Assembly (NCBI GenBank): GCA_019112625.1
Contig: DXIW01000060.1
Coordinates: 1-64,000 of the forward strand
Direction of reading: 5' to 3'
DNA: 64,000 nt
Source of the DNA: Candidatus Acutalibacter stercorigallinarum
GTDB lineage: Bacteria; Bacillota; Clostridia; Oscillospirales; Acutalibacteraceae
A program made the translations under genes and the position numbers. Under the pieces are notes generated by a model that made no database searches, was not told where the DNA came from, and saw only the letters and a list, made by a program, of their open reading frames with translations. Below are positions 16,847 to 37,538 of this stretch, piece by piece (positions within the stretch are counted from its first letter, which is position 1; every line of letters starts with the position of its first letter).

Positions 16847-16977
16847 TTCATAAAAAATACGTAATTCAACTTTATCTATTGTGATTTTTGCCCGCCAAGC
16901 GTCTTTTCCCGGCGAAAATGGCATAAACGGCTTCCAGGCAGCCACACTAGCGTTACAGCGTGGAGGGAGGCATCGTC

Positions 16978-18213: not shown

Positions 18214-18985
18214 GGACTTTTCCCGGCTGTACCAGGCGGTGGAATCCCTCATGGCCCAGACCTTCCCCCACTGGGAGCTGCTCCTCTACGACGACGGCTC
18301 CCCCTCGCCCTACAGCGGGGCCATCCGCCGGGCCGCGGGGCTGGACCCCCGCGTCCGGTACCTCCGGGGGGAGGAGAACCGGGGCCTGGCCTTCGCCCTC
18401 AACCAGTGCCTGGCCCACAGCCAGGGGGAGTACCTGGCCCGGCTGGATGACGACGACGCCTGCGCCCCCCGGCGGCTGGAAAAGCAGCTGGCCTTCCTGG
18501 AGGCCCACCCCCAGTACCAGTGGGTGGGCTCCAACGCGGAGCTGATGGACGCCGGGGGCGTGTGGGGCTTGCAGAAGATGCCGGAGATCCCCGAAAAGCG
18601 GGATTTCCTGTTCAACTCCCCCTACCTGCACCCCACGGTGCTCTTCCGCCGGGAGGCCCTGGCCCAAGCCGGGGGGTACGACCCCAGCCCCCGGTACCGG
18701 CTGTGCGAGGACTACGAGCTGTTTTTCCGGCTGCACCAGCGGGGAATGCGGGGGTATAACCTCCAGGAGCCCCTGCTGCGGTACTGGGAGGACTACGGCT
18801 CCCAGCGCAGGCGCACCTACCGCCGCCGCCTGCGGGAGCTGCGGCTGCGGTACCGGGGCTTCCGCCAGCTGGGCATCCTGGGCCCGGGGACGTTCTGCTA
18901 TGTGCTCAAACCCCTGGCGGTGGGGGCGGTGCCGGCCCCGGTGCACCACACGGTGCGCCGGTGGCAGAAGGGAGGCCTGCTATGA
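18164..18985 (+). CDS. GT2-family glycosyltransferase
   Basis: A 273-residue GT-A glycosyltransferase. ISVAMGVYRP opens the nucleotide-binding fold, YDDGSPSP gives the first aspartates, and ARLDDDDACAPRRL carries the DXD metal site. NSPYLHPTVLFRREAL and LCEDYELFFRL are the acceptor-side motifs of the family. The C-terminus is basic without an obvious membrane helix. It overlaps the GT4 gene by 50 bp and the next gene by 4 bp, indicating coupled translation in the operon. Donor and acceptor are unknown. Confidence 0.9.
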   Translation: MDNQVRISVAMGVYRPRDFSRLYQAVESLMAQTFPHWELLLYDDGSPSPYSGAIRRAAGLDPRVRYLRGEENRGLAFALNQCLAHSQGEYLARLDDDDACAPRRLEKQLAFLEAHPQYQWVGSNAELMDAGGVWGLQKMPEIPEKRDFLFNSPYLHPTVLFRREALAQAGGYDPSPRYRLCEDYELFFRLHQRGMRGYNLQEPLLRYWEDYGSQRRRTYRRRLRELRLRYRGFRQLGILGPGTFCYVLKPLAVGAVPAPVHHTVRRWQKGGLL

Positions 18986-20328
18986 CGCGGCCCTACGGGG
19001 AACGCCTGGCCCAGTACCGCTCCTTGCTGGGGGAGGACCCGGCGCTGGCCCCCCTTTCGCCCAGCCTGGCCCCCGGCGACCCTGCCGGGGCGGTGGCCGG
19101 CCTGGTGCTGGCCCCGGCCCTGGGCGGGTTCACCCAGTGGCTGCTGGCCTGGGCAAAGGGGAGGGGCATCAAGCGCCTCTACTTCCTGGCCCGGGACGGG
19201 TATTGCTTTCTCCGGGCGGCCAGGTCCCTCTCCGACGCCTTGGGCCTGGGGCTGGACTGCCGGTACCTCTGCTGCTCCCGCCAGGCCCTGCGGCTGCCCC
19301 TGTTCCACCTGGACCCCCAGCAGGGGCTGGACGCCCTCTGCCGCAACAGCATGGACCTTACCCTGGATAGGCTCCTGGCCCGGGCGGGCCTGGCCCCAGG
19401 GGAGCGGCAGGCGTGGGGGAAAGCCCTGGCCCTGCCCTTCGGCCTTGGGGAGCGCCTGCCCCGCACCGCCCTGCCCCAGGTGCGCCGGGCCCTGGAACGC
19501 ACCCCCGCCCTCCTCCGCCTGCTGGAAGAGCGCTCAAAAGCGGCGCTGCCCGGCCTGGCCGGGTATCTGAGGCAGGAGGGCCTGCTGGAGGACGTGCCCT
19601 GCGCCCTGGTGGACAGCGGCTGGCTGGGCTCCCTGCAGCAGGGGCTCCAGACGGCCCTGTCCCTGCTGGGCCGCCCCGTCCCTCTGGAGGGCTGCTACTT
19701 CGGGCTGTACCAGGTGCCAAAGGAGATGGACCGGGCCCGCTATCACAGCTACCTCTTCGCCCCGGAGGGTCCCCTGGGGGCCAAGGTCCGCTTCAACAAC
19801 TGCGTATTCGAGGCGGTGTTCACCGCCCCCCACGGCATGACCTTGGGCTACCGCCGGGCCGGGGACCGCTGGCTCCCGGTGCTGGGGGAGGGCGGGGGCC
19901 ATCCCCTGCTGGGGAAGCTGCTGCCCTTCTTCGACCAGTACCTGGCCGGATTGGCCGCCCTCTGCCGGGAACAGGGCCTGGCGGCGGGGCTTACCCAGCG
20001 CCGGGAGGCGGTAAAGAAGCTGCTGGGGGCCTTTTTCACCGCACCCTGGCCCCAGGAGGCGGAGCTCTTCGGCAGCCTGCCCTTTTCCGATGAGGCCGCG
20101 GAAGAAAAGCCCACCCCCCTGGCGGCGCCCCTCACCGACCGGGAGCTGGCGCGCAGCCACGGCCCCGCCCGGCTGCTGGCCCAGGCCGGGCTGTGCCGCC
20201 CCTGCCGGGAGAGCGCCTGGCCCCAGGCCAGCGCCGTGCTGTACAGCGCCCATCCCCGGCGGCGGCTGGGGGAGCAGGCCCTGTACCAGATTCTGCGCTG
20301 CGTAAAACAACAGGCGCACCACACCTGA
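18982..20328 (+). CDS. Stand-alone RDG/VDxGWxGS-domain protein (COG5610 C-half-like)
   Basis: A 448-residue soluble protein without an assigned function. It shares two motifs and their spacing with the C-terminal half of the HAD protein encoded 3 kb downstream: LYFLARDGYCFLR (RDG at 71-73) against LLFLSRDGAVLLR, and VDSGWLGS (210-217) against VDIGWAGS. It lacks the N-terminal HAD phosphatase domain. The acidic and glycine residues in the motifs suggest an enzyme active site. GGGAGG lies 6 bp before the ATG, and the start overlaps the previous stop by 4 bp. A role in polysaccharide assembly is inferred from the operon only. Confidence 0.75.
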   Translation: MTRPYGERLAQYRSLLGEDPALAPLSPSLAPGDPAGAVAGLVLAPALGGFTQWLLAWAKGRGIKRLYFLARDGYCFLRAARSLSDALGLGLDCRYLCCSRQALRLPLFHLDPQQGLDALCRNSMDLTLDRLLARAGLAPGERQAWGKALALPFGLGERLPRTALPQVRRALERTPALLRLLEERSKAALPGLAGYLRQEGLLEDVPCALVDSGWLGSLQQGLQTALSLLGRPVPLEGCYFGLYQVPKEMDRARYHSYLFAPEGPLGAKVRFNNCVFEAVFTAPHGMTLGYRRAGDRWLPVLGEGGGHPLLGKLLPFFDQYLAGLAALCREQGLAAGLTQRREAVKKLLGAFFTAPWPQEAELFGSLPFSDEAAEEKPTPLAAPLTDRELARSHGPARLLAQAGLCRPCRESAWPQASAVLYSAHPRRRLGEQALYQILRCVKQQAHHT

Positions 20329-20345
20329 GAGAGGAGGAGACCACC

Positions 20346-21122
20346 ATGGAGGAGAGACGCCAGCGGCTGCGGCAGCGGCTGTTCCTGCTGGGGCAGCTCA
20401 CCGGGCGGGAGCTGAAGCGGAAATACGCCCGCTCCCTGCTGGGGGTGCTGTGGAGCGTATTGAACCCCCTGCTGTCCATGGCGGTGCTGTCCCTCATCTT
20501 CTCCCGGATGTTTATGCGCAGCATTGAGAACTACCCCATCTACTACCTCACCGGCACCCTGCTGTGGCAGGCCTTTGCCGGGGCCACCACCGCCTCGGTG
20601 ACCACCCTGGCGGACAACCGCCCCCTGCTGCTGAAGGTGAAATTCCCCATGGAGCTGTTCCTCCTCACCCGGGGATGCGCGGCCCTCATCAACCTGGGGT
20701 ATTCCCTCATCGCCTACGGGGTGCTGCTGGCGGTGTTCCGCGTCCCCCTGGGGTGGGCGGTGCTCACCATTTTCCCGGTGGTGCTGTTCTTATTCCTGTT
20801 CTCCCTGGGGGTGTCCTTCCTGCTGGCGGCGGCCTACGTGTTTTTCGGGGATGTGAAGCACCTCTACTCCGTGGCCCTCACCCTGTGGATGTACTGCTCC
20901 GCCATCTTCTACCCGGTGGAGCAGCTCTCCGGCCCCATGCGCCGGGTGGTGGAGGCAAACCCCCTCTACCTGTTCATCGCCTGCCTGCGGGGGGCGGTGC
21001 TGGAGCAGCGCTTCCCCAGCCCTGCTGCCCTCTTGGCCATGGCGGCCTGGGGGGTGGGCATGTACGCCCTGGGGGCATGGGTGTTCCGGGCCCTGCGGGA
21101 AAAAATCTACCAACGGCTGTAA
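20346..21122 (+). CDS. ABC-2 polysaccharide exporter permease (Wzm/TagG-like)
   Basis: A 258-residue integral membrane protein with six predicted helices. The amphipathic N-terminus REIKxKYxxSLLG is represented by GRELKRKYARSLLGVLWSVLNPL, the hallmark of polysaccharide and teichoic-acid ABC-2 permeases. YFYPVE-like AIFYPVEQL and NPLYLFIACLR near the C-terminus also match the family. With the adjacent ATPase it should flip or export the lipid-linked polymer. AGGAGGAG lies upstream of the ATG, and the ATPase gene starts 13 bp downstream. Confidence 0.9.
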   Translation: MEERRQRLRQRLFLLGQLTGRELKRKYARSLLGVLWSVLNPLLSMAVLSLIFSRMFMRSIENYPIYYLTGTLLWQAFAGATTASVTTLADNRPLLLKVKFPMELFLLTRGCAALINLGYSLIAYGVLLAVFRVPLGWAVLTIFPVVLFLFLFSLGVSFLLAAAYVFFGDVKHLYSVALTLWMYCSAIFYPVEQLSGPMRRVVEANPLYLFIACLRGAVLEQRFPSPAALLAMAAWGVGMYALGAWVFRALREKIYQRL

Positions 21123-21135
21123 AGGAGGCGGCGCT

Positions 21136-21906
21136 ATGGGCGGCGAGACAGGCATCCGGGTGGAGGAGGTGACCATGGAATTCCGCCGGGCCGGGGAGGA
21201 GCCGGGGAGTTTGAAGGAACTGCTGGTCTCCGGCTGGAGAAAGCGGCGGCCCCAGACCTTCCGGGCCCTGAACCAGGTGAGCTTCACCGTGGAGCCCGGG
21301 GAGGTGATGGGCATCGTGGGGGCCAACGGCTCGGGGAAGAGCACCCTTCTAAAGCTCATCGCCGGGGTGCTGGCCCCCACAGCGGGCCGGGTGGTGGTGG
21401 ACCACAGCCGGGTGCAGCTCCTCACCCTGGGCACCGGGTTCGACCCGGAGCTCACCGGCCGGGAAAACCTGTACCTGGGCGGGGCGATTTTAGGCTACAC
21501 CAAGGAGCACATCGACAGGAAATACCGGGAGATCGTGGCCTTCGCGGAGCTGGAGGGCTTTCTGGAGGAAAAGGTGCGCAGCTATTCCTCGGGCATGGTG
21601 TCCCGGCTGGGGTTTGCCCTGGCCACCGCCCGGGACGCCCCGGAAATTCTGATTTTGGACGAGGTCCTCAGCGTGGGGGACATGTTCTTCCGGGAGAAGA
21701 GCGAGGCCCGCATCCAAGAGATGATCCACGGGGGCTCCACGGTGCTGCTGGTGTCCCACGCCCCGGGGGTCATCCGGAAAAACTGCACCCGGGCCCTGTG
21801 GCTGGACCGGGGACGGCTGCGAAAACTGGGCAGCCCGGAGGAGGTGTGCGCCGCCTATGAACAGCAAGGCCGCGGAAAAAGTAAAGACCTGGCTCCTGGG
21901 CGGTGA
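21136..21906 (+). CDS. ABC polysaccharide exporter ATPase (Wzt/TagH-like)
   Basis: A 256-residue ATP-binding subunit. Walker A is GANGSGKST near residues 67-75, the signature motif is the degenerate SYSSGMVSRLGFA seen in TagH/Wzt proteins, Walker B is ILILDEVLSVGD, and the switch histidine is in LLVSHAPG. The N-terminal stretch VEEVTMEFRRAGE is family-typical. It lacks the C-terminal carbohydrate-binding domain found in some Wzt proteins, so export is probably not coupled to end-capping. It overlaps the next gene by 50 bp. Confidence 0.9.
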   Translation: MGGETGIRVEEVTMEFRRAGEEPGSLKELLVSGWRKRRPQTFRALNQVSFTVEPGEVMGIVGANGSGKSTLLKLIAGVLAPTAGRVVVDHSRVQLLTLGTGFDPELTGRENLYLGGAILGYTKEHIDRKYREIVAFAELEGFLEEKVRSYSSGMVSRLGFALATARDAPEILILDEVLSVGDMFFREKSEARIQEMIHGGSTVLLVSHAPGVIRKNCTRALWLDRGRLRKLGSPEEVCAAYEQQGRGKSKDLAPGR

Positions 21907-23821
21907 CCCCGCCGCAAAGGAGGAGTACCTGGCCTTCCGGGCCCGGGGCGGGGGCAAACTGGCGGGAGGCTGCCGCCTGCTGGGGCGAAAGCTCCAGGGC
22001 CGGCCGCCCCAGGAAAAACTCTTGTACAGCGGCGGGCCGGAGTCCTCCCTCTCCCGGCGGGAGAGCCCGGAGCAGCTGGCGGCGCGGCTGGCCGCCTACG
22101 ACGTGGTGACCTTCGACGTGTTCGACACCCTGCTGCTGCGGCCCCTGGCCCGGCCGGAGGACGCCTTCTACCTGCTGGGGGCCAGGCTGGGATACCCCGA
22201 TTTTCGGCGGCTGCGCATCCAGGCGGAAGAGGAGGCCCGCCGCCGGAAGGAGCTGGCCACTGGCAGCCGGGAGGTCACTTTAGAGGAGATCTGGGCTGTC
22301 CTGGCCCCGGAGACCGGCCTGTCCCCGGAGGAGGGCATGGCTGCGGAGCGTAAGCTGGAGTCTGACCTGTGCCGGGCGAACCCCTACTTCCTCCCGGTGG
22401 TGGCGGCCCTGCGACGGCAGGGCAAGACCCTGGCCGTCCTCTCGGACATGTACCTGGAGGAGGAGACCGTGGCGGCCTTGCTGGACCGCTGCGGTTTCGG
22501 GACCTTTGCCGCCTGCCTCGTCTCCGGAGAGCGGGGCTGCTCCAAAAGCGGGGGCGGCCTTTACCGCCTGGCCCGGAAGCTCCTGGGGCCGGGCCGCGCC
22601 TGCGCCCACGTAGGGGACGACCCCTGGGCGGACCAGCGCCAGACCGAGGCCGCAGGCTGGGCGGCCTTCCCTTATAAAAACGTCCACCGGGCCGGGGCGC
22701 CTTACCGGGCGGAGGACATGTCCCCCATCGTGGGCAGCCTGTACCGGGGGCTGGTGAATACGCGGCTGCACAACGGGACAGAGCTCCACTCCTGGGCCTG
22801 GGAGTACGGCTATGTCTACGGCGGGCTGTTCGCCGTGGGGTACTGCCGGTTCGTGGAGGGCCTCCGCCGGGAGCTGGGGGCGGACCGGCTGCTGTTCCTC
22901 TCCCGGGACGGGGCGGTGCTGCTGCGGGTCTACCAAAGGCTGTACCCCACAGAGAGGGAGCGGGCGGTGTACGCCCGCTGGTCCCGGCTGGCGGCGGCCA
23001 AAATCACGGCGGACCGGTTCCGGGGGGAGTACTTCCGGCGGTTCCTCACCCACAAGGCGGGGCAGGGCTTCTCCCTCCGGCAGGTGCTGGAGAGCATGGA
23101 GCTCGCCCCCCTGCTGCCGGGGCTGTGCGGCGCTTTGGGGGCGGGGCCCGGTGGGGAATTAACGCATAAAAATGCCCCTCTGGTCAAAAGCTATCTGGTA
23201 GAGCACTGGGACCAGGTGCTGGCCTGCTATGAAGGCCACCGCCAGGCGGGCGGCGCGTACTACCGGGCCCTGCTGGCGGGCTGCCAAAAGGCCCTGGCCG
23301 TGGACATCGGCTGGGCGGGCAGCGGCGCTGTGATGCTGGACTGGGCGGTAAACCGCCTGTGGGGGCTGGGGTGCCCGGTGTTCGGGGCGGTGGCCGGGGC
23401 CAACAGCCGCCACAGCCCGGAGTGGGACGCCATGGAGCCCTTCTGGCTCACCGGCCGGGTGCAAAGTTACCTGTACTCCTCCGGGGAGAACCGGGACCTG
23501 TGGCAATCCCACGACCCCGGGGCGGGGCACAACCTGTTTTGGGAGCTGCTTTTGGGCGCACCGGAAGGGAATCTCACCGGTTTTGGCCCAAAAGGACCCA
23601 TTTTGGGCCCGCCTCCGCCCCATTCGGAGACCATCCGGGCCATCCACCGGGGCATTTTGGACTTTACCGGCGACTTTCTGGCCCTGGAGGCCCGGCTGGG
23701 CCTGACCCTGCCCATCTCCGGCCGGGACGCCTACGCGCCCATGGCCCTGGTGTGCAGCGGGAACAACAAGGAATTTCGGAGAGGATGGGAGGAGTTTCTG
23801 GATGGAGCCCACATCGGGTGA
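21857..23821 (+). CDS. HAD-superfamily two-domain protein (COG5610-like)
   Basis: A 654-residue two-domain protein. Residues 80-290 are a HAD hydrolase: motif I FDVFDTLL (86-93), motif II LAVLSDMYLE, the lysine in GCSKSGG and motif IV VGDDPWADQ. The second aspartate of motif I is kept, so phosphatase activity is plausible. Residues 300-560 are the RDG/VDxGWxGS domain also found alone at 18982-20328. COG5610-type proteins recur in capsule clusters, but their reaction is unknown. GGAGGAGG lies about 12 bp upstream of the chosen ATG; overlap with the ABC ATPase gene is 50 bp. Confidence 0.8.
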   Translation: MNSKAAEKVKTWLLGGDPAAKEEYLAFRARGGGKLAGGCRLLGRKLQGRPPQEKLLYSGGPESSLSRRESPEQLAARLAAYDVVTFDVFDTLLLRPLARPEDAFYLLGARLGYPDFRRLRIQAEEEARRRKELATGSREVTLEEIWAVLAPETGLSPEEGMAAERKLESDLCRANPYFLPVVAALRRQGKTLAVLSDMYLEEETVAALLDRCGFGTFAACLVSGERGCSKSGGGLYRLARKLLGPGRACAHVGDDPWADQRQTEAAGWAAFPYKNVHRAGAPYRAEDMSPIVGSLYRGLVNTRLHNGTELHSWAWEYGYVYGGLFAVGYCRFVEGLRRELGADRLLFLSRDGAVLLRVYQRLYPTERERAVYARWSRLAAAKITADRFRGEYFRRFLTHKAGQGFSLRQVLESMELAPLLPGLCGALGAGPGGELTHKNAPLVKSYLVEHWDQVLACYEGHRQAGGAYYRALLAGCQKALAVDIGWAGSGAVMLDWAVNRLWGLGCPVFGAVAGANSRHSPEWDAMEPFWLTGRVQSYLYSSGENRDLWQSHDPGAGHNLFWELLLGAPEGNLTGFGPKGPILGPPPPHSETIRAIHRGILDFTGDFLALEARLGLTLPISGRDAYAPMALVCSGNNKEFRRGWEEFLDGAHIG

Positions 23822-24773
23822 AAAGAGACGGGTGCTGTACCACGCGGTGAGCTCCTACCAGCTGCTGGAGGCGGTGCTCCACCGGCTGCGGTTCCACCCC
23901 CATGACCCGGCGGTGCTGCTGCTGCCGGACTTCATCGCGGAGAAGTACCCCAAATACCGGCGGCTGGCGGAGCGGGGCTTCTTCCAGGAGGTGCGGCTGT
24001 TCCCCTACCTGCGGGTGCCCCACCGCAGCGAGGAGGAGGTCTTTGCCGAGGCCGCCCAGGCCTGCCGGAAGGCGCTGCCCTGCCCCTTGGGGGACTTCTC
24101 CCGGGTCTATGTGGCGGGGGCCCACTTCTACTTTACGTTGTGCCTCATCCAGGCGGGCATCCCCTTTACCTTTTTCGAGGACGCGGCGGGGATGCTCACC
24201 CGGGCGGGGGAGCTGGAGGAGAACCTGGCGCGGCGCTACCCCCTCCACGCGGCCATCGCGGCGAAGTACGGCCTGTTCGACGGCAACTGCCCCCTGGCCC
24301 GGGAGATCGTCTGCCTGAAAAGCGCCCAGCGGGGGCCGCTGCCCCCGCACTGCACCGACTTCTCCGTGGAGCGGGCCTTGGAGGGCCTTTCCCCCCGGCT
24401 GCGGAAAAAGCTGGTGCGGCTGTTTTTGCCCCATCCCCTGTGCTCCCGGGCGGAGGCCATCCTGCTCACCCAGCATCTGGCCAATTTGGGGGCTGCCACC
24501 TGGGAGGGCCAGCGCCGGCTGTACCAGCGCCTGGCCCAGGGGCCCCTCAAAGGGGTGCGGCTGCTCGTCAAGCCCCACCCTGACGACGGCATGGACTACC
24601 GGGAGATCTTCCCCAAAGCCCGGGTGCTGCGGCAGGTGTTCCCGGCGGAGCTGCTGCCCTACGCCTTCTTGGTGGGGCCCCGGGTGGTGTACACCCTGGA
24701 TTCCACCAGCTGCGAAAACCTGAAGCGCCATTTCATCATCATCCAACTGGGGAGGGACCTCCATGGCCCATAA
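23802..24773 (+). CDS. Sialyltransferase-like GT-B glycosyltransferase
   Basis: A 323-residue protein resembling GT52/polysialyltransferase-type enzymes. An N-terminal SYQLLEAV start is followed by the acidic motif FFEDAAG (E126, D127), the CMP-binding HP motif in LVKPHPDD (H259, P260) and a later serine/threonine motif YTLDSTS. These three motif types mark bacterial enzymes that use CMP-activated acidic sugars. No signal or membrane helix is seen. GGAGG lies 9 bp before the ATG. It overlaps its neighbours by 20 and 11 bp. The exact sugar is unknown; the KdsB-like enzyme downstream is the likely donor source. Confidence 0.75.
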   Translation: MEPTSGEKRRVLYHAVSSYQLLEAVLHRLRFHPHDPAVLLLPDFIAEKYPKYRRLAERGFFQEVRLFPYLRVPHRSEEEVFAEAAQACRKALPCPLGDFSRVYVAGAHFYFTLCLIQAGIPFTFFEDAAGMLTRAGELEENLARRYPLHAAIAAKYGLFDGNCPLAREIVCLKSAQRGPLPPHCTDFSVERALEGLSPRLRKKLVRLFLPHPLCSRAEAILLTQHLANLGAATWEGQRRLYQRLAQGPLKGVRLLVKPHPDDGMDYREIFPKARVLRQVFPAELLPYAFLVGPRVVYTLDSTSCENLKRHFIIIQLGRDLHGP

Positions 24774-25869
24774 CGCATTGTTCCTTGTGAATTCCGTGTA
24801 CCAGCTGCTGACGGCGGTGCACTTAAAGCGCACCCTGCTGCGGGACCGGGAGGCGGACCTGCTCCTCACCGACGTGACCCCGGCCCTGCCCCGGCTGCGG
24901 GGGCGGCTGGAGGAGACAGGGCTCTTTGCCCGGGTGATTCTGGCCAAGGGGGCCGAGCTCCAGGGCCGGTGCCACCTGAACCGCCCGGCGGAGCTGGACG
25001 CGTGCTTCCAGAACCAGGAGGCCCTGCTGCGGGGTGCCCTCTCCGGGGAGCTGGGGGAGTACGGGGAGATCTACTTTGCCAACTTCGACGTGCTGGCCCG
25101 GCTGCTGGCCTGCCGGTACGACCACCTGCCCTGCCGGTTCTACTGGTACGAGGACGGGTTCTCCTCCTATGTCATCGACTACCTGCGGCCGGACCGGGCC
25201 GCGGCCAACCGCCACCCCCTGGCGGGGAAGATCGCCCACAAGGTGGAGGCCGCGTTGCTGTACCAGCCTCAGCTGGCCCTGCGGGGGGACGGTATCCCCA
25301 ACCTGGCCCTGCCCAAGCTCCCCCGGGGGGACGGGGCGCTGCTGGAGGTGCTGGACTTCCTCTTTGACTATCGACCCCTCCGGGACCCGGCGGACGTGCT
25401 CTTTCTGGAGCAGAGCTTCCGGGCGGAGAACATCCCCGGCAACGACCTGGAGCTGATGGAGCGCTGCCGGGCGGCGGTGGGGCCGGGGCGGTTTCTGGTA
25501 AAGCCCCACCCCCGCAACCCCCAGAACATCGCCCTGGAGCGGGGCCTCTCCCGGCCCTGGCACGGGGACGCCCCCTGGGAGCTGTACCTGCTCCACGGGG
25601 ACCTGGAGGGGAAGACCGTGGTCACGGTGTGCTCCAACGGGGCCCTCGCCGGCCGGCTGGCCCTGGCCCCGCCCAGCGGGGAGCGGGTGGTGCTGCTGTA
25701 CCGGCTGTTCACCGGGAAGGTGCTGTGGAAGGAGAACGATGTGCTGCGCCGGTATCTGGACCGGTTCTGCCGGGAACAGGAGGGAGGAGGCGTCTTTGCC
25801 CCCGGCACCGTGTACCAGCTGGAACACTTACTGCGCTATTTGGGAGGCGGCTATGGAGAAAAGACCTGA
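24763..25869 (+). CDS. Second sialyltransferase-like GT-B glycosyltransferase
   Basis: A 368-residue protein distantly related to its upstream neighbour. It begins ALFLVNSVYQLLTAV, the usual opening of polysialyltransferase/GT52-like proteins. It carries the catalytic acidic motif YEDG (E130, D131, G132), the HP motif in VKPHPRN (H249, P250) and VCSNGALAG towards the end. A CMP-sugar donor is therefore likely. Two such enzymes in a row could build a disaccharide repeat or polymer. It overlaps the flanking genes by 11 and 17 bp. Confidence 0.75.
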   Translation: MAHNALFLVNSVYQLLTAVHLKRTLLRDREADLLLTDVTPALPRLRGRLEETGLFARVILAKGAELQGRCHLNRPAELDACFQNQEALLRGALSGELGEYGEIYFANFDVLARLLACRYDHLPCRFYWYEDGFSSYVIDYLRPDRAAANRHPLAGKIAHKVEAALLYQPQLALRGDGIPNLALPKLPRGDGALLEVLDFLFDYRPLRDPADVLFLEQSFRAENIPGNDLELMERCRAAVGPGRFLVKPHPRNPQNIALERGLSRPWHGDAPWELYLLHGDLEGKTVVTVCSNGALAGRLALAPPSGERVVLLYRLFTGKVLWKENDVLRRYLDRFCREQEGGGVFAPGTVYQLEHLLRYLGGGYGEKT

Positions 25870-27574
25870 GGTCTCGGTGATTGTGCCGGTGTACCAGGTG
25901 GAGAGCTACCTGGAGCGGGCGGTGGAGTCCCTGCTGGCCCAGACGCTGGAGGAGCTGGAGATCATATTGGTGGACGACGGCAGCACCGACCAGTCGCCCC
26001 AAATCTGCGATGAGTACGCCAGGCGTTTTCCGGAGAAGGTGCGGGTGCTCCACCAGGAGAACCAGGGCCTGGGCCTGGCCCGCAACGCCGGGCTGGACCT
26101 GGCCCGGGGGGAGTACGTGGCCTTTGTGGACTCGGACGACACGGTGGAGCCGGACATGTACCGGGCCATGGCGGAGAAGGCCCGGGCCGGGGACTACGAC
26201 ATGGTGTTCTGCGACGTGCGCATTTTGTATGTGGACGAGGGGCGGGAGAGTATCTCCCAGACCTACCCGGAGGAGAGCATCGACCTGGGGGACTACCTGG
26301 TGCGGGGGAACAACATCACCTACAGCGTGAACAAGCTGTACCGCCGCAGCCTGTGGGAGGGCCTGCGGTACGAGAAGATGCTCTTCGAGGACATCGCCCT
26401 CATCCCCGCCCTGGTGACCCGCACGGCCCGCGTCGGCTATGTGCGGGAGCCCTTTTACAACTACTACCGGCGCTCCGGTACCCTGTCCACCTCCCAGGTG
26501 GGGGCCATGGGGGACGTGGTGACGGCCTTCCGGCTGTTCCTCACCCGGTGCGGGGAGCGGTACCGGGAGGAGGCGGTGTACTGCGCGGCCAAACAGCTCT
26601 GCTGGAACATGACCCAGTCCCGCACCGTGTTTTTGCCGGACTTTATCGGGCTGCTCCGGGACTTCCGAAAGGACTTCGCCCTGAACCCCTACCTGGCCAA
26701 GGACCCCCAGGCGGGGAAGATCCTGGACTACCTGGACCGGCCGGTGATCCCCCGGCGGCTGGTGTGCGCCCACTGCGGGCGACCCCTCCCGGAGGAGTGG
26801 CAGCAGGCGGTGGAGCGGGACTTCCCCCAGGGGGAGGTGGTGGAGCTCACCGAGGCGAACCTGCCGGAGGACCTGCCCCCGGCGGTAGCCCGGGCTATAA
26901 AGGTGGGCCGCTGGGACTTTGTGGAGGAGTACCTGGCCCTGGGGGAGGTGTACGAAAAGGGCGGCATCGCCCTGGCCCCGGAGTGCCGGACCCAGCTGGG
27001 CCTGAACCGGCTGCGGCTGGGGCAGGTGTTCTTCGGTTTTGAGGACGGGGAGGCCCTGACTGCCGGGTGCTTTGGGGCGGTGGCGGGCCACTATGTGCTG
27101 GAGGCCCTGCTGGACACCTACCGGGAAGAGAACCTCTACAACGCCGCCCTGCTGCCCCTGAAAGAGCGGCTGCGGGACTTCCTCCTGCTGCGCATGGGGC
27201 TGCAGGCCAACGGCAAGAAGCAGCTCTTGCGGGGGGAGGTGCAGGTCTATCCCCCGGACGTGCTGGCCTTCGACATGCGCAACGGGGAGAACTGCTGCAA
27301 GTATCAGCCCTGCCCGGCGCCCGAGGGCTTCGAGGTGGTGCGGGCCTCCCTGCTGGAGCGGTGGTCGAAAGAGCGGATGGAGAATTGGAACCTGTACAAA
27401 CGGGAGCGGGACCGGAAAGGGGGCGGGGCTCCCCCGGCGGCTGCTCCGGCCGAGGCGGTGACCCGGGGCCAGCTGGAGGAGGAGCTGCGGCGGCTGGCGG
27501 AGACCTATGAGAGCTCCACCAGCTGGAAGGTGACCCGGCCCCTGCGGGCCGTGGCAAAACTTTGGAAACGGTAA
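25853..27574 (+). CDS. GT2 glycosyltransferase fused to degenerate GT32-like domain
   Basis: A 573-residue protein. Residues 1-230 are GT2: SVIVPVYQVESYLERAV, LVDDGSTDQS and the DXD site FVDSDDTVEP (93-96). From residue 300 a GT32-like region follows. VCAHCGRPLPEEWQ and WDFVEEYLALGEVYEKGGIAL align with the GT32 start and the stretch before its DXD, but the DXD itself is replaced by APE (GGIALAPEC). The second domain has therefore probably lost catalysis and may bind the acceptor. The tail SSTSWKVTRPLR resembles motifs at the ends of other capsule GTs. The ATG at 25853 has GGGAGG upstream. Confidence 0.85.
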   Translation: MEKRPEVSVIVPVYQVESYLERAVESLLAQTLEELEIILVDDGSTDQSPQICDEYARRFPEKVRVLHQENQGLGLARNAGLDLARGEYVAFVDSDDTVEPDMYRAMAEKARAGDYDMVFCDVRILYVDEGRESISQTYPEESIDLGDYLVRGNNITYSVNKLYRRSLWEGLRYEKMLFEDIALIPALVTRTARVGYVREPFYNYYRRSGTLSTSQVGAMGDVVTAFRLFLTRCGERYREEAVYCAAKQLCWNMTQSRTVFLPDFIGLLRDFRKDFALNPYLAKDPQAGKILDYLDRPVIPRRLVCAHCGRPLPEEWQQAVERDFPQGEVVELTEANLPEDLPPAVARAIKVGRWDFVEEYLALGEVYEKGGIALAPECRTQLGLNRLRLGQVFFGFEDGEALTAGCFGAVAGHYVLEALLDTYREENLYNAALLPLKERLRDFLLLRMGLQANGKKQLLRGEVQVYPPDVLAFDMRNGENCCKYQPCPAPEGFEVVRASLLERWSKERMENWNLYKRERDRKGGGAPPAAAPAEAVTRGQLEEELRRLAETYESSTSWKVTRPLRAVAKLWKR

Positions 27575-27587
27575 GGAGGAATACAGG

Positions 27588-28334
27588 ATGCGGGCAGTGG
27601 CGATCATCCCGGCGCGGTACGGCTCCAGCCGGCTGCAGGGCAAGCCTTTGATGGAGATCTGCGGCAGGCCCATGCTCTGGTGGGTGTACCAGCAGGTGAA
27701 GAAGTCGGAAAAAATACAGGAGGTGTGGGTGGCCACCGACAGCCCGGACATCCAGCGGATGTGCCGGGAGCGCCACATGCTGTGCCGGATGACTCCGGCG
27801 GACTGTCCCACCAGCACCCAGCGGCTGTGGGAGGCGGCCCAGACCATCCCCGCGGACGTGTATGTGTGCGTCAACGGGGACGAGCCCCTCATCGACCCCC
27901 AGGTGGTGGAGCAGGTGCTCCCCCAGGGCCTGGAGGGCTTTTTCGCCGCCAATCTCATGGCACCCATCCGCTCCCCGGCGGAGGCGGTGGACGAGAGCAA
28001 CATCAAGGTGGTGGCCGACAGGCAGGGCAACGCCCTGTACTTCTCCCGCAGCCCCATCCCCCACCCCAAGGGGAGTCTTGACTTCCTCTACTACAAGCAC
28101 CTGGGGGTGCTGGCCTACACCAAAGAGGCGCTGGAGTTTTTCGCCCACACCCCCAAAGGCCCTCTGGAGCAGGTGGAGGACGTAAACGAGCTGCGGTTCG
28201 TGGAGCACGGCAAGCCCCTGCGGATGATCCCGGTGGAGAGCCGTAGCCTTTCGGTGGACACGGAGAAGGACCTGGCCCACGTGCGCAGGCTGGTGGAGGA
28301 AAAATTGCGGCAAGGAAAGCTGGTGATCACATGA
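27588..28334 (+). CDS. KdsB-like CMP-sugar (acidic keto-sugar) cytidylyltransferase
   Basis: A 248-residue nucleotidyltransferase of the 3-deoxy-manno-octulosonate cytidylyltransferase family. The nucleotide loop IPARYGSSRLQGKPL, the CMP-contacting ATDSPDI, VNGDEPLIDP and the late NELRFVEHGKPL and SVDTEKDL motifs are all present, at family length. It should activate an acidic keto sugar with CTP. There are no kdsA, kdsC, neuB or neuC genes nearby, and a Gram-positive cell does not make Kdo-lipid A, so the sugar is probably not Kdo. The stop overlaps the aldolase gene start by 4 bp, tying the two in one pathway. Confidence 0.85.
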   Translation: MRAVAIIPARYGSSRLQGKPLMEICGRPMLWWVYQQVKKSEKIQEVWVATDSPDIQRMCRERHMLCRMTPADCPTSTQRLWEAAQTIPADVYVCVNGDEPLIDPQVVEQVLPQGLEGFFAANLMAPIRSPAEAVDESNIKVVADRQGNALYFSRSPIPHPKGSLDFLYYKHLGVLAYTKEALEFFAHTPKGPLEQVEDVNELRFVEHGKPLRMIPVESRSLSVDTEKDLAHVRRLVEEKLRQGKLVIT

Positions 28335-29917
28335 GCATGGAAATACTGGACTGCACCCTGCGGGACGGGGGCTATATCAACAACTGGCGGTTCGGCCGGG
28401 AGACCATCGCCGCCATTTTGGAAAAGCTGGACCAGGCGGGCATCGACATCATCGAGTGCGGGTTCCTCACCCGGGAGGGCGGGGACCGGGACTGCTCCCT
28501 GTTCTCCTCCCTGGAGGCAGTGGAGGCGGTGCTGCCCCGGCAGCGTCGGGCCCGGTACGTGGCCATGATCGCCCTGGGGGAGAAGGAGCTGGAGCCCAGC
28601 GCCCTGCCGGACAACGGCGGCGGGGTGCTCCAGGGAATCCGGCTCACCTTCCACAAGGCGGAGGCGGACAAGGCCTTCCGCTGGGCCAAGGAGCTGATGG
28701 CCAAGGGCTACCCGGTGTATCTCCAGCCCGTGGGCACCGTGTCCTACAGCGACCTGGAGCTTCTCCACCTGGTGGAGAAGGTGAACGTGCTGGAGCCCTA
28801 CGCCTTCTATATCGTGGACACCCTGGGCAGCATGTACCGCAACCAGGTGACCCGTCGCTTCCACCTGCTGGACGAGAACATGGCCCCGGGCATCCGGCTG
28901 GGGTTCCACGGCCACAACAATTTGCAGCTGGCCTTTTCCAACGCCCAGGTCCTGGGGCAGATCCAGACGAAGCGGCAGCTGCTTTTGGACTCCTCGGTGT
29001 ACGGCATGGGCCGGGGGGCGGGGAACCTGCCCACCGAGCTCATCGCCCGGTATATCGACCAGAACATCGCCTCCCGGTACGACGTATCCTTGGTGATGGA
29101 CGTGTACGACCAGCACATCGCGGACATCCGCAGAAAGCACCAGTGGGGCTACTCCATGGCCTACCACATCGCCGCGGTGCACGTGTGCCACCCCAACTAC
29201 GCCTCCTTCCTGCTGGAGAAGCGGGACCTGCCGGTCAAGGACATGGAGGCGGTGCTCCAGTCCATCCCGGAAAACCGCCGGGCCATCTACGACCCGGACC
29301 TGATCCGCCGGCTGTACCACCAGTTCCAGGAGCGGCAGATTGACGACAGCCAGACCGTGGAGCGGCTGGCCCGGGTGCTGCGCCAGCGGCGGCTCCTCCT
29401 TTTGGGCGGCGGGGAGAGCCTGGCGGAAAAGCGCCGGGAGATCGGGGACTTCATCCAGAAGGAGCAGCCCTTTGTGGTGTCGGTGAATTTCTGGGACAAC
29501 GCCTTTCCCACCGACGCCTGCTTTGTCAGCAGCCGCCGCTGCCGGGAGGCCATCCGGCGGCAGCTGGCGGGGGCCCCCGGGGCGCCCCAGGCCATCCTCA
29601 CCTCCAACCTGCCGGAGGAGGAAGGGGCCCTGTTCGTGGACTACGCCAGCTGCCTAAACGGCGACGCCGCCGTGGCCGACGCCCCGGGGCTGATGCTCCT
29701 GCGGCTGCTGAAGCGCTGCGGGGCCAGCCAGGTCTATCTGGCGGGCTTCGACGGGGTGCGGGCCGGGACGGGCTGCCCCCTGGGCTTCGCCTGCGGCCTG
29801 GAAGGGGAGCGGGAGGACCTGCGGGACCGGCAGCGGCGCATCCGCAAGCAGCTGGGGCGGCTGGGGCTGCAGATCATCTTTTTAACGCCCTCGGCCTATG
29901 AGGACGAGGAGGAATAA
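28331..29917 (+). CDS. HMGL-like aldolase fused to a DUF115-like domain
   Basis: A 528-residue protein. Residues 1-260 are a DRE-TIM aldolase of the HMG-CoA-lyase/4-hydroxy-2-oxovalerate aldolase type: LDCTLRDGGYINNW provides the metal aspartate and catalytic arginine, and LGFHGHNNLQLA the metal histidines. From about residue 350 a second domain begins LLLLGGGESLAEKRREI, resembling DUF115/MptE-like phosphotransferase folds. A C-C bond-forming aldolase next to a CMP-transferase suggests synthesis of a 2-keto-acid sugar, but no such reaction has been shown here. It overlaps the KdsB-like gene by 4 bp. Confidence 0.75.
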   Translation: MSMEILDCTLRDGGYINNWRFGRETIAAILEKLDQAGIDIIECGFLTREGGDRDCSLFSSLEAVEAVLPRQRRARYVAMIALGEKELEPSALPDNGGGVLQGIRLTFHKAEADKAFRWAKELMAKGYPVYLQPVGTVSYSDLELLHLVEKVNVLEPYAFYIVDTLGSMYRNQVTRRFHLLDENMAPGIRLGFHGHNNLQLAFSNAQVLGQIQTKRQLLLDSSVYGMGRGAGNLPTELIARYIDQNIASRYDVSLVMDVYDQHIADIRRKHQWGYSMAYHIAAVHVCHPNYASFLLEKRDLPVKDMEAVLQSIPENRRAIYDPDLIRRLYHQFQERQIDDSQTVERLARVLRQRRLLLLGGGESLAEKRREIGDFIQKEQPFVVSVNFWDNAFPTDACFVSSRRCREAIRRQLAGAPGAPQAILTSNLPEEEGALFVDYASCLNGDAAVADAPGLMLLRLLKRCGASQVYLAGFDGVRAGTGCPLGFACGLEGEREDLRDRQRRIRKQLGRLGLQIIFLTPSAYEDEEE

Positions 29918-29949
29918 GCCCAAAAGCAAAGCGGAAGGAGGCGGACGCC

Positions 29950-31221
29950 ATGGGGACAGGAAGAAAGCTGACCCGGGGCCAGAAGGCAGCCTGGGCCTTG
30001 GCCGCCGGGGCCGCGGCCCTGGTTCTGGCCGCGGTGGGGGCGGTGGCCTACTATGGAAACATCCTCCACGGGGCGGTGGAGCAGGCCACGGCCCGGGAAC
30101 CGGACCGGGCGGTGGTGGGGGTGTATGTGGAGGCCGGCGACCCGGCCCAGTCCCTGGAGGACACGGCGGGCTACGCCTACGGCGCGGCGGCGGGGGAGCC
30201 CCACGGGGAACAGGCCCAGGCGGCGCTCCGGCAGCGGCTGGGGGAGGTGGAGATCGCATCCAGCCCCACAGCCTTCGCCCTGGCGGACCGCCTGAAGGCG
30301 GGGGAGGTCCGGGCCATTTTGCTGGGGGACGCCTACGCCCAGGCCCTCTCGGAGGCCCCGGGCTACCAGTGGACCGCCCGGCGCCTGCGGCAGGTGGGCA
30401 GCCTGGAGCTGGAGCTGGAGGACACCCCGGAGCCCCTGGCTGTGCCCGAGGACCTGCCCCGGCGCTTTCTGGTGTACCTCAGCGGGACGGACACTTTCGG
30501 CAGCGCGGCCACCCGGGCCCGCAGCGACGTGAACATCCTGGCGGCGGTGGACACCCAGGAGAAAAAGCTGCTGCTGGTGGCCACGCCCCGGGACTTTTAC
30601 GTCACCTTCCCGGAGACGGGGGGCGCGGGGGACAAGCTGGCCCACGCGGGTATCTACGGGGTGGAGGCCTCGGCGGCGGCCCTGGAGGGCCTGTACGGCG
30701 TGGCGGTGAACTACTGGGTGAAGCTGAACTTCACCGGCTTTGTGGAGCTCATCGACGCCCTGGGCGGGGTGGAGGTCTACTCGGACCAGGCGTTTACCGT
30801 GGAGCCCATCAGGACCTACCAACAGGGGTACAACCAGCTCACCGGGCTGGAGGCCCTGGCCTTTGCCCGGGAGCGGTACAGCTTCCCCGACGGGGACTAC
30901 CAGCGGGCCAAAAACCAGATGGAGGTCATCCGGGCGGTGGTGGAGAAGTGCAGCTCCTTCGCCCTGGTCCAGAATTTCCGGCCGGTGCTGGAGGCGGCGG
31001 GGGAGCACCTGGAGACCAACATGCCCAAGGAGCACCTCTACGGCCTGGCGGCGCAGCAGCTGGGGGACCCCGGCCCCTGGACCGTGGAGACCTACACCGC
31101 CCAGGGGGAGAGCGCCTACCGGGAGACCTATTCTATGCCCGGGCAGGAGCTGTACGTGATCCTCCCCGGGGAGGATTCGGTACAGGAGGCAAAGGAAAAG
31201 CTGGCCGCGGTGCTGGGGTAG
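29950..31221 (+). CDS. LytR-CpsA-Psr (LCP) family glycopolymer transferase
   Basis: A 423-residue membrane-anchored protein. A basic N-terminus and one helix (residues 15-36) place the rest outside the cell. After an extracellular accessory region the LCP domain shows SGTDTFG, the arginine-rich RARSDVNIL, VATPRDFYV, VNYWVKLNFTGFVELIDALGGVEVY and ALAFARERY. LCP enzymes transfer lipid-linked glycopolymers to peptidoglycan. Being last in the operon, it probably attaches the polymer made by the upstream genes to the wall. GGAGG precedes the ATG, with 32 bp from the aldolase gene. Confidence 0.9.
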   Translation: MGTGRKLTRGQKAAWALAAGAAALVLAAVGAVAYYGNILHGAVEQATAREPDRAVVGVYVEAGDPAQSLEDTAGYAYGAAAGEPHGEQAQAALRQRLGEVEIASSPTAFALADRLKAGEVRAILLGDAYAQALSEAPGYQWTARRLRQVGSLELELEDTPEPLAVPEDLPRRFLVYLSGTDTFGSAATRARSDVNILAAVDTQEKKLLLVATPRDFYVTFPETGGAGDKLAHAGIYGVEASAAALEGLYGVAVNYWVKLNFTGFVELIDALGGVEVYSDQAFTVEPIRTYQQGYNQLTGLEALAFARERYSFPDGDYQRAKNQMEVIRAVVEKCSSFALVQNFRPVLEAAGEHLETNMPKEHLYGLAAQQLGDPGPWTVETYTAQGESAYRETYSMPGQELYVILPGEDSVQEAKEKLAAVLG

Positions 31222-32959: not shown

Positions 32960-32987
32960 TTGATTTTTTTTACAGGTATGGTATGAT
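32960..32987 (+). promoter_or_regulatory. Promoter of the glg operon
   Basis: TTGATT, a 16-bp T-rich spacer and TATGAT, 46 bp upstream of the glgB start. The surrounding 32870-32990 stretch is AT-rich compared with its neighbours. Confidence 0.65.
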
Positions 32988-33033
32988 AGCTCTAAAGGAA
33001 TCCGGAACCTCCGGAAAAAGGAGCGTGTGCGCT

Positions 33034-35052
33034 ATGGATCGCGAGAAAAAGCTATCGAAAGCCAGCGCGGAAAAGAAGCCGGAAAATGTCCCGCTCTATC
33101 TGTTCCGCAGCGGAAAAAACCGCCGGGCTTATGAGTATATGGGCCTGCACAAGACCGTGAAGGACGGCAAGGAGTGCATGGTGGCCCGGGTGTGGGCCCC
33201 CAGGGCCAAGGAAGTTTCCCTGGTGGGCAATTTCTGCAACTGGGACAAGGCCAAGTACCCCCTGGAGAAAATCGACGACCAGGTGTGGGAGGGCTACACA
33301 GACTTTGTGTTCCAGCCCTACGAGCTGTACAAATTCTACATCAAGACCGCCAAGGGGGAGGACACCTACAAGTCGGACCCCTACGCCCGCCACACCGAGA
33401 CCCGGCCCGGCACCGCCTCCCGCTGGTACGAGCTGGAGGGCTACCAGTGGCAAGACCAGGCCTGGCAGGACCACAAAAAGCAGCACCCCCACTACGACCA
33501 GCCGGTGAACATCTACGAGGTCCACGCCGGCTCCTGGCGGAAATACCAGGACGGCAGCGTGTTCTCCTACGACAAGCTGGGGGATGAGCTCATCCCCTAC
33601 GTGAAAGACATGGGCTTTACCCACATCGAGTTCATGCCCCTGACCGAGTATCCTTTCGACGCCTCCTGGGGCTACCAGGTGACGGGCTACTTCGCCCCCA
33701 CCTCCCGCTATGGGGAGCCCAAGGATTTTATGCGCTTCGTCGACCGGTGCCACCAGGCGGGCATCGGGGTCATCATGGACTGGGTGCCCGCCCACTTCCC
33801 CCGGGACGCGGCGGGGCTGGCCAAATTCGACGGCACCCCCTGCTACGAGTATGAGGACCCCCGCAAGGGGGAGCACAAGGAGTGGGGCACCCTGGTGTTC
33901 GACTTCGGCCGGCCCGAGGTGATCAGCTTCCTCATGTCCAGCGCCGTGTTCTGGCTGAAGGAGTACCACGTGGACGGCCTGCGGGTGGACGCGGTGGCCT
34001 CTATGCTGTACCTGGACTACAACCGCCGGGACGGGGAGTGGATCGCCAACAAGGACGGGGGCAAGGAGAACCTGGAGGCCGTGGCCTTCCTGCAGGCTTT
34101 GAACGAGGCCGCCTTCGCCGAGGTCCCCGAGGTGATGATGATCGCCGAGGAGTCCACCTCCTGGCCCATGGTGTCGAAGCCCACCTTTATGGGGGGCCTG
34201 GGCTTCAACTACAAGTGGAACATGGGCTGGATGAACGATATGCTCCGGTACATGTCCATGGACCCCCTGTTCCGCAGCGGGAACCACAACGCCCTGACCT
34301 TCTCCTTCTTCTACGCCTTTTCCGAGAACTTCATCCTGCCCATCTCCCACGATGAGGTGGTGTACGGGAAGAGCTCCCTCATCAATAAAATGCCGGGGGA
34401 CGACAAGATGAAGGCCGACCAGATGCGGGCTTTCGTCAGCTTTATGATGGCCCACCCGGGCAAGAAGCTGTTCTTTATGGGCACGGAGTTTGCCCAGAAG
34501 AACGAGTGGAATTTCGAGAAAGAGCTGGAGTGGGGGCTTTTGCAGTACCCCGAGCACCAGAACGCCCAGGCCTTCTTCAAGGCGGTGAACCACTTCTACC
34601 TCCAGCGGCCCGAGCTGTGGGAGATCGACTTCTCCTGGGAGGGCTTCGAGTGGATCTCCAACGACGACTACCAGCAGAGCGTCATCGCCTTCCGCCGGAA
34701 GTCCCGAGAGGGCAAAGAGCTGGTGTGCGTGTGCAACTTCGTGCCCGTCCAGCGGGAGAACTACTGCATCGGCGTGCCCATCCGGGGCACCTGGGCCGAG
34801 GTGTTCTCCTCTGACGACAAAGCCTTCGGCGGCCAGGGCGTCACCAACGGCAAGGCCATCAAGACCCAGGACGTGCCCATGCACGGCTGCGAGCAGAGCG
34901 TGAGCCTCACTCTGCCGGGCAACTCGGTGTTCTTCCTGGAGTGCGTGAGGAAGACCCCCAAGCGGGCCGCGAGGACCACCGCCAAAAAGGCGGAGAAGCC
35001 CGTCCCGAAAAAGCCCGCCAAGAAGACGGCGGCGAAGGGGAAAGCACAGTAA
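33034..35052 (+). CDS. glgB: 1,4-alpha-glucan branching enzyme GlgB
   Basis: A 672-residue GH13 enzyme that makes alpha-1,6 branches in glycogen. A CBM48 domain (VARVWAPRAKEVSLVGNFCNW) precedes the barrel. EVHAGSWR, GVIMDWVPAHFP, the nucleophile region GLRVDAVASMLYLDY, MIAEEST and LPISHDEVVYGK show the catalytic aspartates and glutamate. The last 35 residues are a Lys/Ala/Pro-rich tail (KRAARTTAKK, KPAKKTAAKG), which is not usual for GlgB. The ATG at 33034 has AAAAAGGAG upstream. It is first in a glgB-C-D-A operon. Confidence 0.95.
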   Translation: MDREKKLSKASAEKKPENVPLYLFRSGKNRRAYEYMGLHKTVKDGKECMVARVWAPRAKEVSLVGNFCNWDKAKYPLEKIDDQVWEGYTDFVFQPYELYKFYIKTAKGEDTYKSDPYARHTETRPGTASRWYELEGYQWQDQAWQDHKKQHPHYDQPVNIYEVHAGSWRKYQDGSVFSYDKLGDELIPYVKDMGFTHIEFMPLTEYPFDASWGYQVTGYFAPTSRYGEPKDFMRFVDRCHQAGIGVIMDWVPAHFPRDAAGLAKFDGTPCYEYEDPRKGEHKEWGTLVFDFGRPEVISFLMSSAVFWLKEYHVDGLRVDAVASMLYLDYNRRDGEWIANKDGGKENLEAVAFLQALNEAAFAEVPEVMMIAEESTSWPMVSKPTFMGGLGFNYKWNMGWMNDMLRYMSMDPLFRSGNHNALTFSFFYAFSENFILPISHDEVVYGKSSLINKMPGDDKMKADQMRAFVSFMMAHPGKKLFFMGTEFAQKNEWNFEKELEWGLLQYPEHQNAQAFFKAVNHFYLQRPELWEIDFSWEGFEWISNDDYQQSVIAFRRKSREGKELVCVCNFVPVQRENYCIGVPIRGTWAEVFSSDDKAFGGQGVTNGKAIKTQDVPMHGCEQSVSLTLPGNSVFFLECVRKTPKRAARTTAKKAEKPVPKKPAKKTAAKGKAQ

Positions 35053-35144
35053 AAAAGCGGCGCCCTCCCGGGTGGGAGAGAGGGAAAGCCCCCTGGAGGG
35101 GCGCGGCTTTGGAATAGACCGATCATATTAAGGAGGACGATACA

Positions 35145-37468: not shown

Positions 37469-37538
37469 GCCCCGGCAGATCAGCAGCCAGGAAATAGCCT
37501 GCGGCGCCGTTGGGCGGCCGCAAGAAAGGAAGTTACTT

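Follow-up and report, generated by a model that had tools for sequence, protein, structure and literature searches.

An aldolase of the HMGL-like family probably takes the place of KdsA and KdsD in a bacterial operon for surface polymer synthesis. We analyzed 64,000 nucleotides from Candidatus Acutalibacter stercorigallinarum (assembly GCA_019112625.1, contig DXIW01000060.1, positions 1 to 64,000), hereafter the window, which carries an ATP-binding cassette (ABC) exporter/LCP operon at 16960-31221 on the + strand, with a GT4-type glycosyltransferase (GT) gene first and an LCP gene last. As read from its genes, this operon probably directs the synthesis and export of a surface glycopolymer that includes a 3-deoxy-2-ulosonic acid. 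The HMGL-type enzyme would join a pyruvate enolate to an aldose or aldose phosphate and so yield the ulosonic acid directly; a phosphatase would strip the phosphate, if the acceptor is phosphorylated; a KdsB-like enzyme would form the cytidine monophosphate (CMP)-sugar; one or both of two polysialyltransferase-like GTs, GTa and GTb, would transfer it; and an ABC pair would export the polymer for attachment to peptidoglycan by the LCP protein. Comparison with other genomes points to this route through gene linkage and fusion, mutual exclusion between the aldolase and KdsA/KdsD, and intact catalytic residues. We infer the pyruvate donor, the acceptor, the product (3-deoxy-D-manno-octulosonic acid, Kdo, or an analogue), the direction of the reaction and the wall linkage, the last from the LCP gene.

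A preliminary description of this DNA had centered on four genes, all of which are open reading frames (ORFs) on the + strand: GTa (23802-24773), GTb (24763-25869), kdsB (27588-28334) and the aldolase gene (28331-29917). The translational coupling it suggested for the last two is visible in the sequence, where the kdsB stop and the aldolase start overlap as ATGA.

Co-Occurrence of the Aldolase with KdsB

Established pathways for Kdo and for ulosonic acids of the sialic type rely on phosphoenolpyruvate (PEP)-dependent synthases to make the carbon skeleton. We searched 200 family genomes, calling the aldolase at E ≤ 1e-70 and KdsB, KdsA and KdsD over their profile cut-offs. The aldolase is present in 27/200 genomes (49 at E ≤ 1e-3, the extras being short or partial), KdsB in 25/200, KdsA in 4/200, and KdsD in those same 4. 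Co-occurrence of the KdsB-like and HMGL-like genes, which the preliminary description had proposed as a check, is found in 16 genomes, with the two genes adjacent in all 16 and KdsA or KdsD over cut-off in none (0/16). KdsB was detected in 9 of the 173 genomes without a strong aldolase. Because the genomes are related, the corresponding Fisher values (9e-11 for the aldolase with KdsB, 0.01 for the aldolase versus KdsA within KdsB genomes) are indicative only. KdsA calls are well separated: full scores run from 396.8 to 414.8 bits, and no other protein exceeds 137.5 bits.

The remaining KdsB genomes fall into two kinds. KdsA and KdsD are carried by 4/25, of which two (G024 and G107) have weak, short aldolase-type matches and two have none; in one KdsA genome (G105) the gene order is MptE-like, kdsB, kdsA, kdsD, kdsC. 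A further 5/25 have neither KdsA nor the aldolase, and we therefore rejected the rule that KdsB without KdsA always means an aldolase. In G125, the sole other genome of the genus searched, there is neither an aldolase match nor a KdsB over cut-off; the trait therefore differs between members of the genus.

Searches for Known kds and neu Genes

Contig C54, which carries the window, belongs to a metagenome-assembled genome (MAG) of 2.19 Mb in 70 contigs, estimated to be 86% complete. Within this assembly, the best KdsA match scores 112 bits (cut-off 314), the best KdsD match 27.8 bits (cut-off 203.7) and the best KdsC match 24.1 bits (cut-off 106.95). The KdsA match is of the 3-deoxy-D-arabino-heptulosonate-7-phosphate (DAHP) type, and we rejected it as a KdsA, since it scores 487 bits as a DAHP synthase. 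The NeuB model has one match, at 31.7 bits above the Pfam cut-off of 22.1, located at the DAHP synthase; clear NeuB matches in other genomes score 144–350 bits. An Epimerase_2 protein (417 bits) is encoded on another contig, C24, so that the absence of neuC is not strictly established. The list of missing genes in the preliminary description thus stands for kdsA, kdsC and neuB, of which the 86% assembly has no true copy, but not strictly for neuC.

We also searched whole genomes for 29 of 80 loci from a contig scan (described below), in all of which a CMP-sugar synthetase lies no more than 3 kb from the aldolase. Neither KdsA nor true NeuB is found in 17/29, and seven of these are isolates (L073, L074, L075, L078, L093, L099 and L100); apart from true NeuB, PF03102 matches in the 29 genomes reach at most 45.4 bits. 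These searches bear on the possibility that the environment, or kds or neu genes within the 14% of the genome missing from the assembly, supplies the sugar, the aldolase being catabolic. The incomplete assembly and the Epimerase_2 gene elsewhere in it leave some room for such a supply, which we nonetheless regard as highly improbable: KdsA and KdsD are over cut-off in 0 of the other 15 family genomes with aldolase and KdsB, the seven isolate genomes lack KdsA and true NeuB, and the aldolase and kdsB genes overlap here and form a single fused gene elsewhere. The search for a kds or neu pathway elsewhere in the genome, a possible refutation raised in the preliminary description, found none in the assembled 86%.

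Linkage and Fusion across Wider Loci

Searches with the window protein yielded 113 loci: the window itself, 32 loci from family genomes, and 80 retained out of 109 that the contig scan gave. Species may be common to the latter two sets, some members are near copies, and L004 lies outside the counts. Neighbors and fused domains were assigned by profile, and 96 aldolases are full-length and 17 short. A CMP-sugar synthetase lies within 3 kb or is fused in 79/96 full-length loci (53 KdsB-like, 33 NeuA-like, 7 both; the raw NeuA count of 36, with 10 both, included three fused KdsB domains that cross-match the NeuA profile), and in 73/96 it is a separate gene within 300 bp of the aldolase. Among short aldolases, 2/17 have a synthetase. 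A polysialyltransferase (polyST)-like GT occurs within 6 kb in 36/96 full-length loci, and KdsA occurs inside the fetched stretch of one aldolase locus only (L110). The preliminary description knew of no Gram-positive system with this exact set; the pairing is widespread and not special to this operon, and it also occurs outside Gram-positives.

Fusions bring the same functions into single proteins. The aldolase, its MptE-like domain and KdsB are encoded together in a single open frame of roughly 770 codons in Psychromonas (L143), a Sulfurimonas MAG (L121) and a Verrucomicrobia MAG (L120); in Psychromonas a HAD gene follows 17 bases after. In a Lachnospiraceae MAG (L137), the aldolase is fused to a HAD phosphatase. 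In the aldolase-domain tree, where the KdsB label was given priority if both partners were present, label changes on starred branches number at least 13 for KdsB and at least 15 for NeuA, indicating that the kind of cytidylyltransferase switched repeatedly while CMP activation stayed. Homologues of CMP-sugar synthetase number about 4 to 7 in each of two Helicobacter loci (L134 and L119) and a Treponema locus (L112), which suggests more than one CMP-sugar. A 2-keto-3-deoxygluconate-kinase-like gene adjoins the aldolase in L054, L056, L057, L116 and L123, which fits a 2-keto-3-deoxy acid product.

These patterns raise a broader proposal, which we hold tentatively and with slightly less than even confidence: a widespread, undescribed family of biosynthetic ulosonate aldolases may exist in Bacillota, Melainabacteria, Spirochaetota, Campylobacterota, Pseudomonadota and others. 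In this family, C–C joining with pyruvate would have taken over from PEP-dependent KdsA and made KdsD unnecessary, CMP-sugar synthetases of two distantly related kinds would be interchangeable and sometimes fused to the aldolase, an MptE-like domain would be part of the protein, and the gene would encode a Kdo-aldolase-like activity working in the synthetic direction.

Observations against an Aldolase Route

Several observations weigh against synthesis of a CMP-activated ulosonic acid by the aldolase. No CMP-sugar synthetase is present in 17/96 full-length loci, indicating that part of the aldolase family does something else, and 11 of these loci have a thiamine pyrophosphate (TPP) enzyme that resembles acetolactate synthase (L056-L060, L105, L109, L110, L113, L116 and L122). 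In the Sulfurimonas fusion locus, the fused gene stands directly after a NeuB-like gene, as judged by eye. Among the 29 genomes searched in full, KdsA is over cut-off in 2 and NeuB reaches at least 144 bits in 11. One of the 16 genomes with aldolase and KdsB (G068) has an SIS match of 135 bits, below the cut-off of 203.7, and four odd KdsBs score highly (301–306 bits) in genomes without KdsA or aldolase (L192-L195, in G133, G187, G148 and G145, respectively). The genome under study is itself a MAG and has no KdsC match, and the window operon and six others of the 17 loci closest to it have no HAD gene directly downstream of the aldolase. Finally, the aldolase has Tyr15 where DmpG has its His (H21, which we take to be the catalytic residue); the putative aldolase 3dxi has Tyr too.

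The TPP loci raise the possibility that the aldolase product is a nonsugar hydroxy-keto acid or group unrelated to CMP activation. Besides the 11/96 loci with a TPP enzyme and no synthetase, a relative on a Desulfobaculum plasmid (L210) that adjoins rfbH and transketolase halves is in keeping with this idea. It is nevertheless unlikely, given the synthetase in 79/96 loci, the three fusions and the exclusion of KdsA; one of the fusions (L120) is a twelfth TPP locus and carries its fused KdsB near the TPP enzyme. L110, the locus with KdsA, is of the TPP type. The TPP-linked aldolases possibly serve another sugar pathway. By eye, the neighborhood of one of the odd KdsBs (L192) contains BNR-like and FAD-oxidoreductase-like genes and no glycosyltransferases.

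The Aldolase Protein

The window aldolase scores 73.6 bits against the HMGL-like profile, over its cut-off of 29, and 92.8 bits against the DmpG equivalog TIGR03217, under its cut-off of 286. For its N-terminal part, 4-hydroxy-2-oxovalerate aldolase is the best named-enzyme profile, at scores well under the cut-offs. An alignment of 68 sequences preserves E42 and W272-G273 together with R11, D12, H193 and H195; the last four, and with them the metal site and RDG motif, are invariant. The best named structural matches of its AlphaFold model (mean pLDDT 92.4, pTM 0.77) are 4-hydroxy-2-oxovalerate aldolases (PDB 1nvm, 4lrs and 8ih7), and it also matches 3dxi, all at a structural-alignment identity of 18–23%.

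Residues 338-528 resemble MptE-like proteins by profile–profile comparison only (hhalign 96.4%, E 1e-9, versus 0.1–0.3% for three control profiles), and Pfam PF01973 itself does not match the window protein. This domain may hold the nucleotide sugar or the acceptor. Searches of viral and phage collections returned nothing beyond partial and distant matches, and of 180 plasmid records with matches, one has a query coverage of at least 80%, at 25% identity.

The KdsB-Like Enzyme and the Identity of the Sugar

The window KdsB-like protein, the sole PF02348 match in the assembly, scores 245 bits against subfamily NF003952 (cut-off 193) and 137.4 bits against equivalog TIGR00466, whose cut-off of 155.2 it misses. 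Its catalytic lysine (K19) and metal-binding aspartates (D98 and D224) are intact; roles for K19 and the Asp pair are given in PMC3149649. We built a tree of 65 KdsB rows (51 aldolase-linked, 4 KdsA-linked, 6 other and 4 PDB references, the fused KdsBs being left out). The four KdsA-linked KdsBs form one group inside a 47-row set with 100/99 support, together with 42 aldolase-linked rows and 1 unlinked row, while the PDB references and the four odd family KdsBs sit outside it.

The nesting of KdsA-linked KdsBs among aldolase-linked ones makes Kdo a leading candidate for the product, formed from pyruvate and D-arabinose, or as Kdo-8-P from D-arabinose-5-P. This narrower form of the proposed route, which is possible but which we would not presume, draws further on the KdsA-linked relative's KdsB, which misses the TIGR00466 cut-off by a similar margin (133.1 bits), on N96, N122, K161 and S222, changes common to the window and the KdsA-linked KdsBs, and on the KdsC-family phosphatases directly 3′ of some aldolases. 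Kdo aldolase is also a known activity (PMC4412817), and EC 4.1.2.23 was a sequence-less orphan in 2007 (PMC1940265). Against Kdo, the KdsA-linked branch is long (1.01) and locally placed at 92/86, these KdsBs differ from the window clade at positions 171, 175 and 199-202, and the arabinose-5-P-forming enzyme KdsD exceeds its cut-off in 0/16 genomes with aldolase and KdsB.

A comparably serious candidate is a different ulosonic acid, departing from Kdo in chain length or stereochemistry according to the aldehyde acceptor. The missing KdsD speaks against arabinose-5-P from the usual source as the acceptor, exchanges between KdsB-like and NeuA-like partners suggest that products may vary among loci, and Tyr15 replaces the DmpG His; the nested KdsA-linked KdsBs speak against it. 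With both shared and differing KdsB positions, Kdo and an analogue are about equally open. The preliminary description's aldolase-made, CMP-activated and transferred keto-acid sugar is thus supported by linkage, fusions, KdsA/KdsD exclusion and phosphatase and polyST-type GT neighbors, but it had called the sugar unknown, and Kdo is about as likely.

Phosphatases

A phosphatase lies within 4 kb or is fused in 56/96 full-length aldolase loci. In 10 of the 17 loci closest to the window, counting the window too, the aldolase is immediately followed by a HAD gene. One neighboring phosphatase type belongs to the KdsC family (122 bits, cut-off 107), and members of this family stand directly downstream of some aldolases. 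When the organism's own genome was searched with the HAD of its relatives, the homologues obtained were no more than 34% identical and sat on other contigs. As no HAD gene stands beside the window aldolase, the pathway here would use either an unphosphorylated acceptor or a distant HAD. We also considered the HAD domain of the protein at 21857-23821 as the missing phosphatase; it is a weak candidate with the motif FDVFDT, which we take not to be that of a classical DxD phosphatase.

Putative CMP-Sugar Transferases

GTa and GTb are placed with polyST at the family level by comparison of their homologues. Alone, GTa falls below both Pfam cut-offs (polyST E 0.013, 15.5 bits, cut-off 23.3; GT52 E 0.045, 13.4 bits, cut-off 26.1), and the GTb window protein matches neither profile. 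At E ≤ 0.05, polyST is matched by 27/33 GTa homologues and 16/17 GTb homologues, and GT52 by 15/33 GTa homologues; homology between GTa and GTb is put at 98.5%. In fold, GTa matches polysialyltransferase 5wc6 best among PDB entries, at modest TM-scores (0.53/0.47); a GTa profile against PDB sequences gave no relevant match. Invariant columns are E126, G130, H259 and P260 in GTa, and E130-D131-G132, H249-P250 and S291-N292 in GTb. The acidic-EDG/HP/ST motif set noted in the preliminary description therefore agrees broadly, except that the third motif reads SN in GTb.

Organization of the Operon

The genes of the operon, in order, are as follows.

16960-18213, +, GT4-type glycosyltransferase at the operon start (Pfam Glycos_transf_1, 105.7 bits)
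18164-18985, +, GT2 glycosyltransferase (Pfam Glycos_transf_2, 93.4 bits)
18961-20328, +, 455-aa protein without Pfam or NCBIfam match, kept in relatives' operons
20193-21122, +, ABC-2 exporter permease (Pfam ABC2_membrane, 57.9 bits)
21136-21906, +, ABC exporter ATPase (Pfam ABC_tran, 83.8 bits)
21857-23821, +, 654-aa protein with an N-terminal HAD-like domain (Pfam Hydrolase, 35.4 bits, residues 81-259)
23802-24773, +, GTa, polysialyltransferase/GT52-like, putative CMP-sugar transferase (family-level profiles and fold)
24763-25869, +, GTb, second polysialyltransferase-like enzyme and GTa homologue (family-level profile)
25853-27574, +, GT2 glycosyltransferase with a C-terminal extension (Pfam Glycos_transf_2, 138.3 bits)
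27588-28334, +, KdsB-like putative CMP-ulosonate cytidylyltransferase (profile scores and catalytic residues)
28331-29323, +, DmpG-like HMGL domain of the 528-aa aldolase (profile, alignment and model)
29342-29917, +, C-terminal domain of the aldolase, distantly MptE-like (PF01973) by hhalign
29950-31221, +, LCP (LytR-CpsA-Psr) glycopolymer transferase (TIGR00350, 95.7 bits, cut-off 62.3; PF03816, 118.2 bits)

The true start of the ABC-2 permease is probably downstream of 20193. The ORF of the GT2 enzyme between GTb and kdsB opens at 25739, and the sequence makes a start at 25853 likelier. The 455-aa protein has tblastn matches in 15/113 comparison loci and LCP matches occur in 9/113, many loci being ended by contig ends. 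Just downstream of the operon, at 32983-38966, lie a glycogen branching enzyme gene (by profile) and then GlgC/GlgD- and glycogen-synthase-like ORFs (by eye).

Comparison with Known Systems

If the proposed route is correct, Gram-positives and several further phyla would have in the aldolase a second chemical solution to ulosonic acids. The occurrence of KdsB without KdsA would be explained, an orphan aldolase activity would gain a candidate sequence, and acidic keto-sugars would be expected on organisms in which they are not known. A search of titles and the starts of abstracts, in open-licence papers, found no literature that links an HMGL-type aldolase to a CMP-sugar synthetase.

The canonical KdsD-KdsA-KdsC-KdsB pathway shares KdsB-type activation with the window, and relatives often add a KdsC-family or other HAD phosphatase; an MptE-like gene is also common to a relative's true kds operon. 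In contrast, the window is without KdsA and KdsD and has an HMGL-type aldolase instead. A Kdo island of Bacillus coahuilensis (PMC4744853) includes kdsB, kdsA, kdsC, kdsD and kpsC; this is likewise a Firmicute kdsB, but with the standard kdsA route. The 4-hydroxy-2-oxovalerate aldolases and 3dxi share the fold, the RDG motif and the D/H/H metal site with the window aldolase, which differs from the former in Tyr for the DmpG His and in its extra MptE-like C-terminal domain. PMC4412817 describes Kdo aldolase as a catabolic enzyme that breaks Kdo down to D-arabinose and pyruvate, and EC 4.1.2.23 appears in the 2007 orphan table of PMC1940265; the reaction proposed here would be the same chemistry in reverse. 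The Kdo transferase GT140 has a structure resembling GT38 (PMC12887879). GTa and GTb families match polyST profiles, and GTa the fold, but both are distant in sequence from GT38/GT52. Finally, teichulosonic acid of Streptomyces coelicolor, as described in PMC7831098, is a wall polymer of 2-keto-3-deoxy-nononic acid (Kdn) and so places an ulosonic acid in a Gram-positive wall polymer, as we propose here, although its sugar is Kdn.

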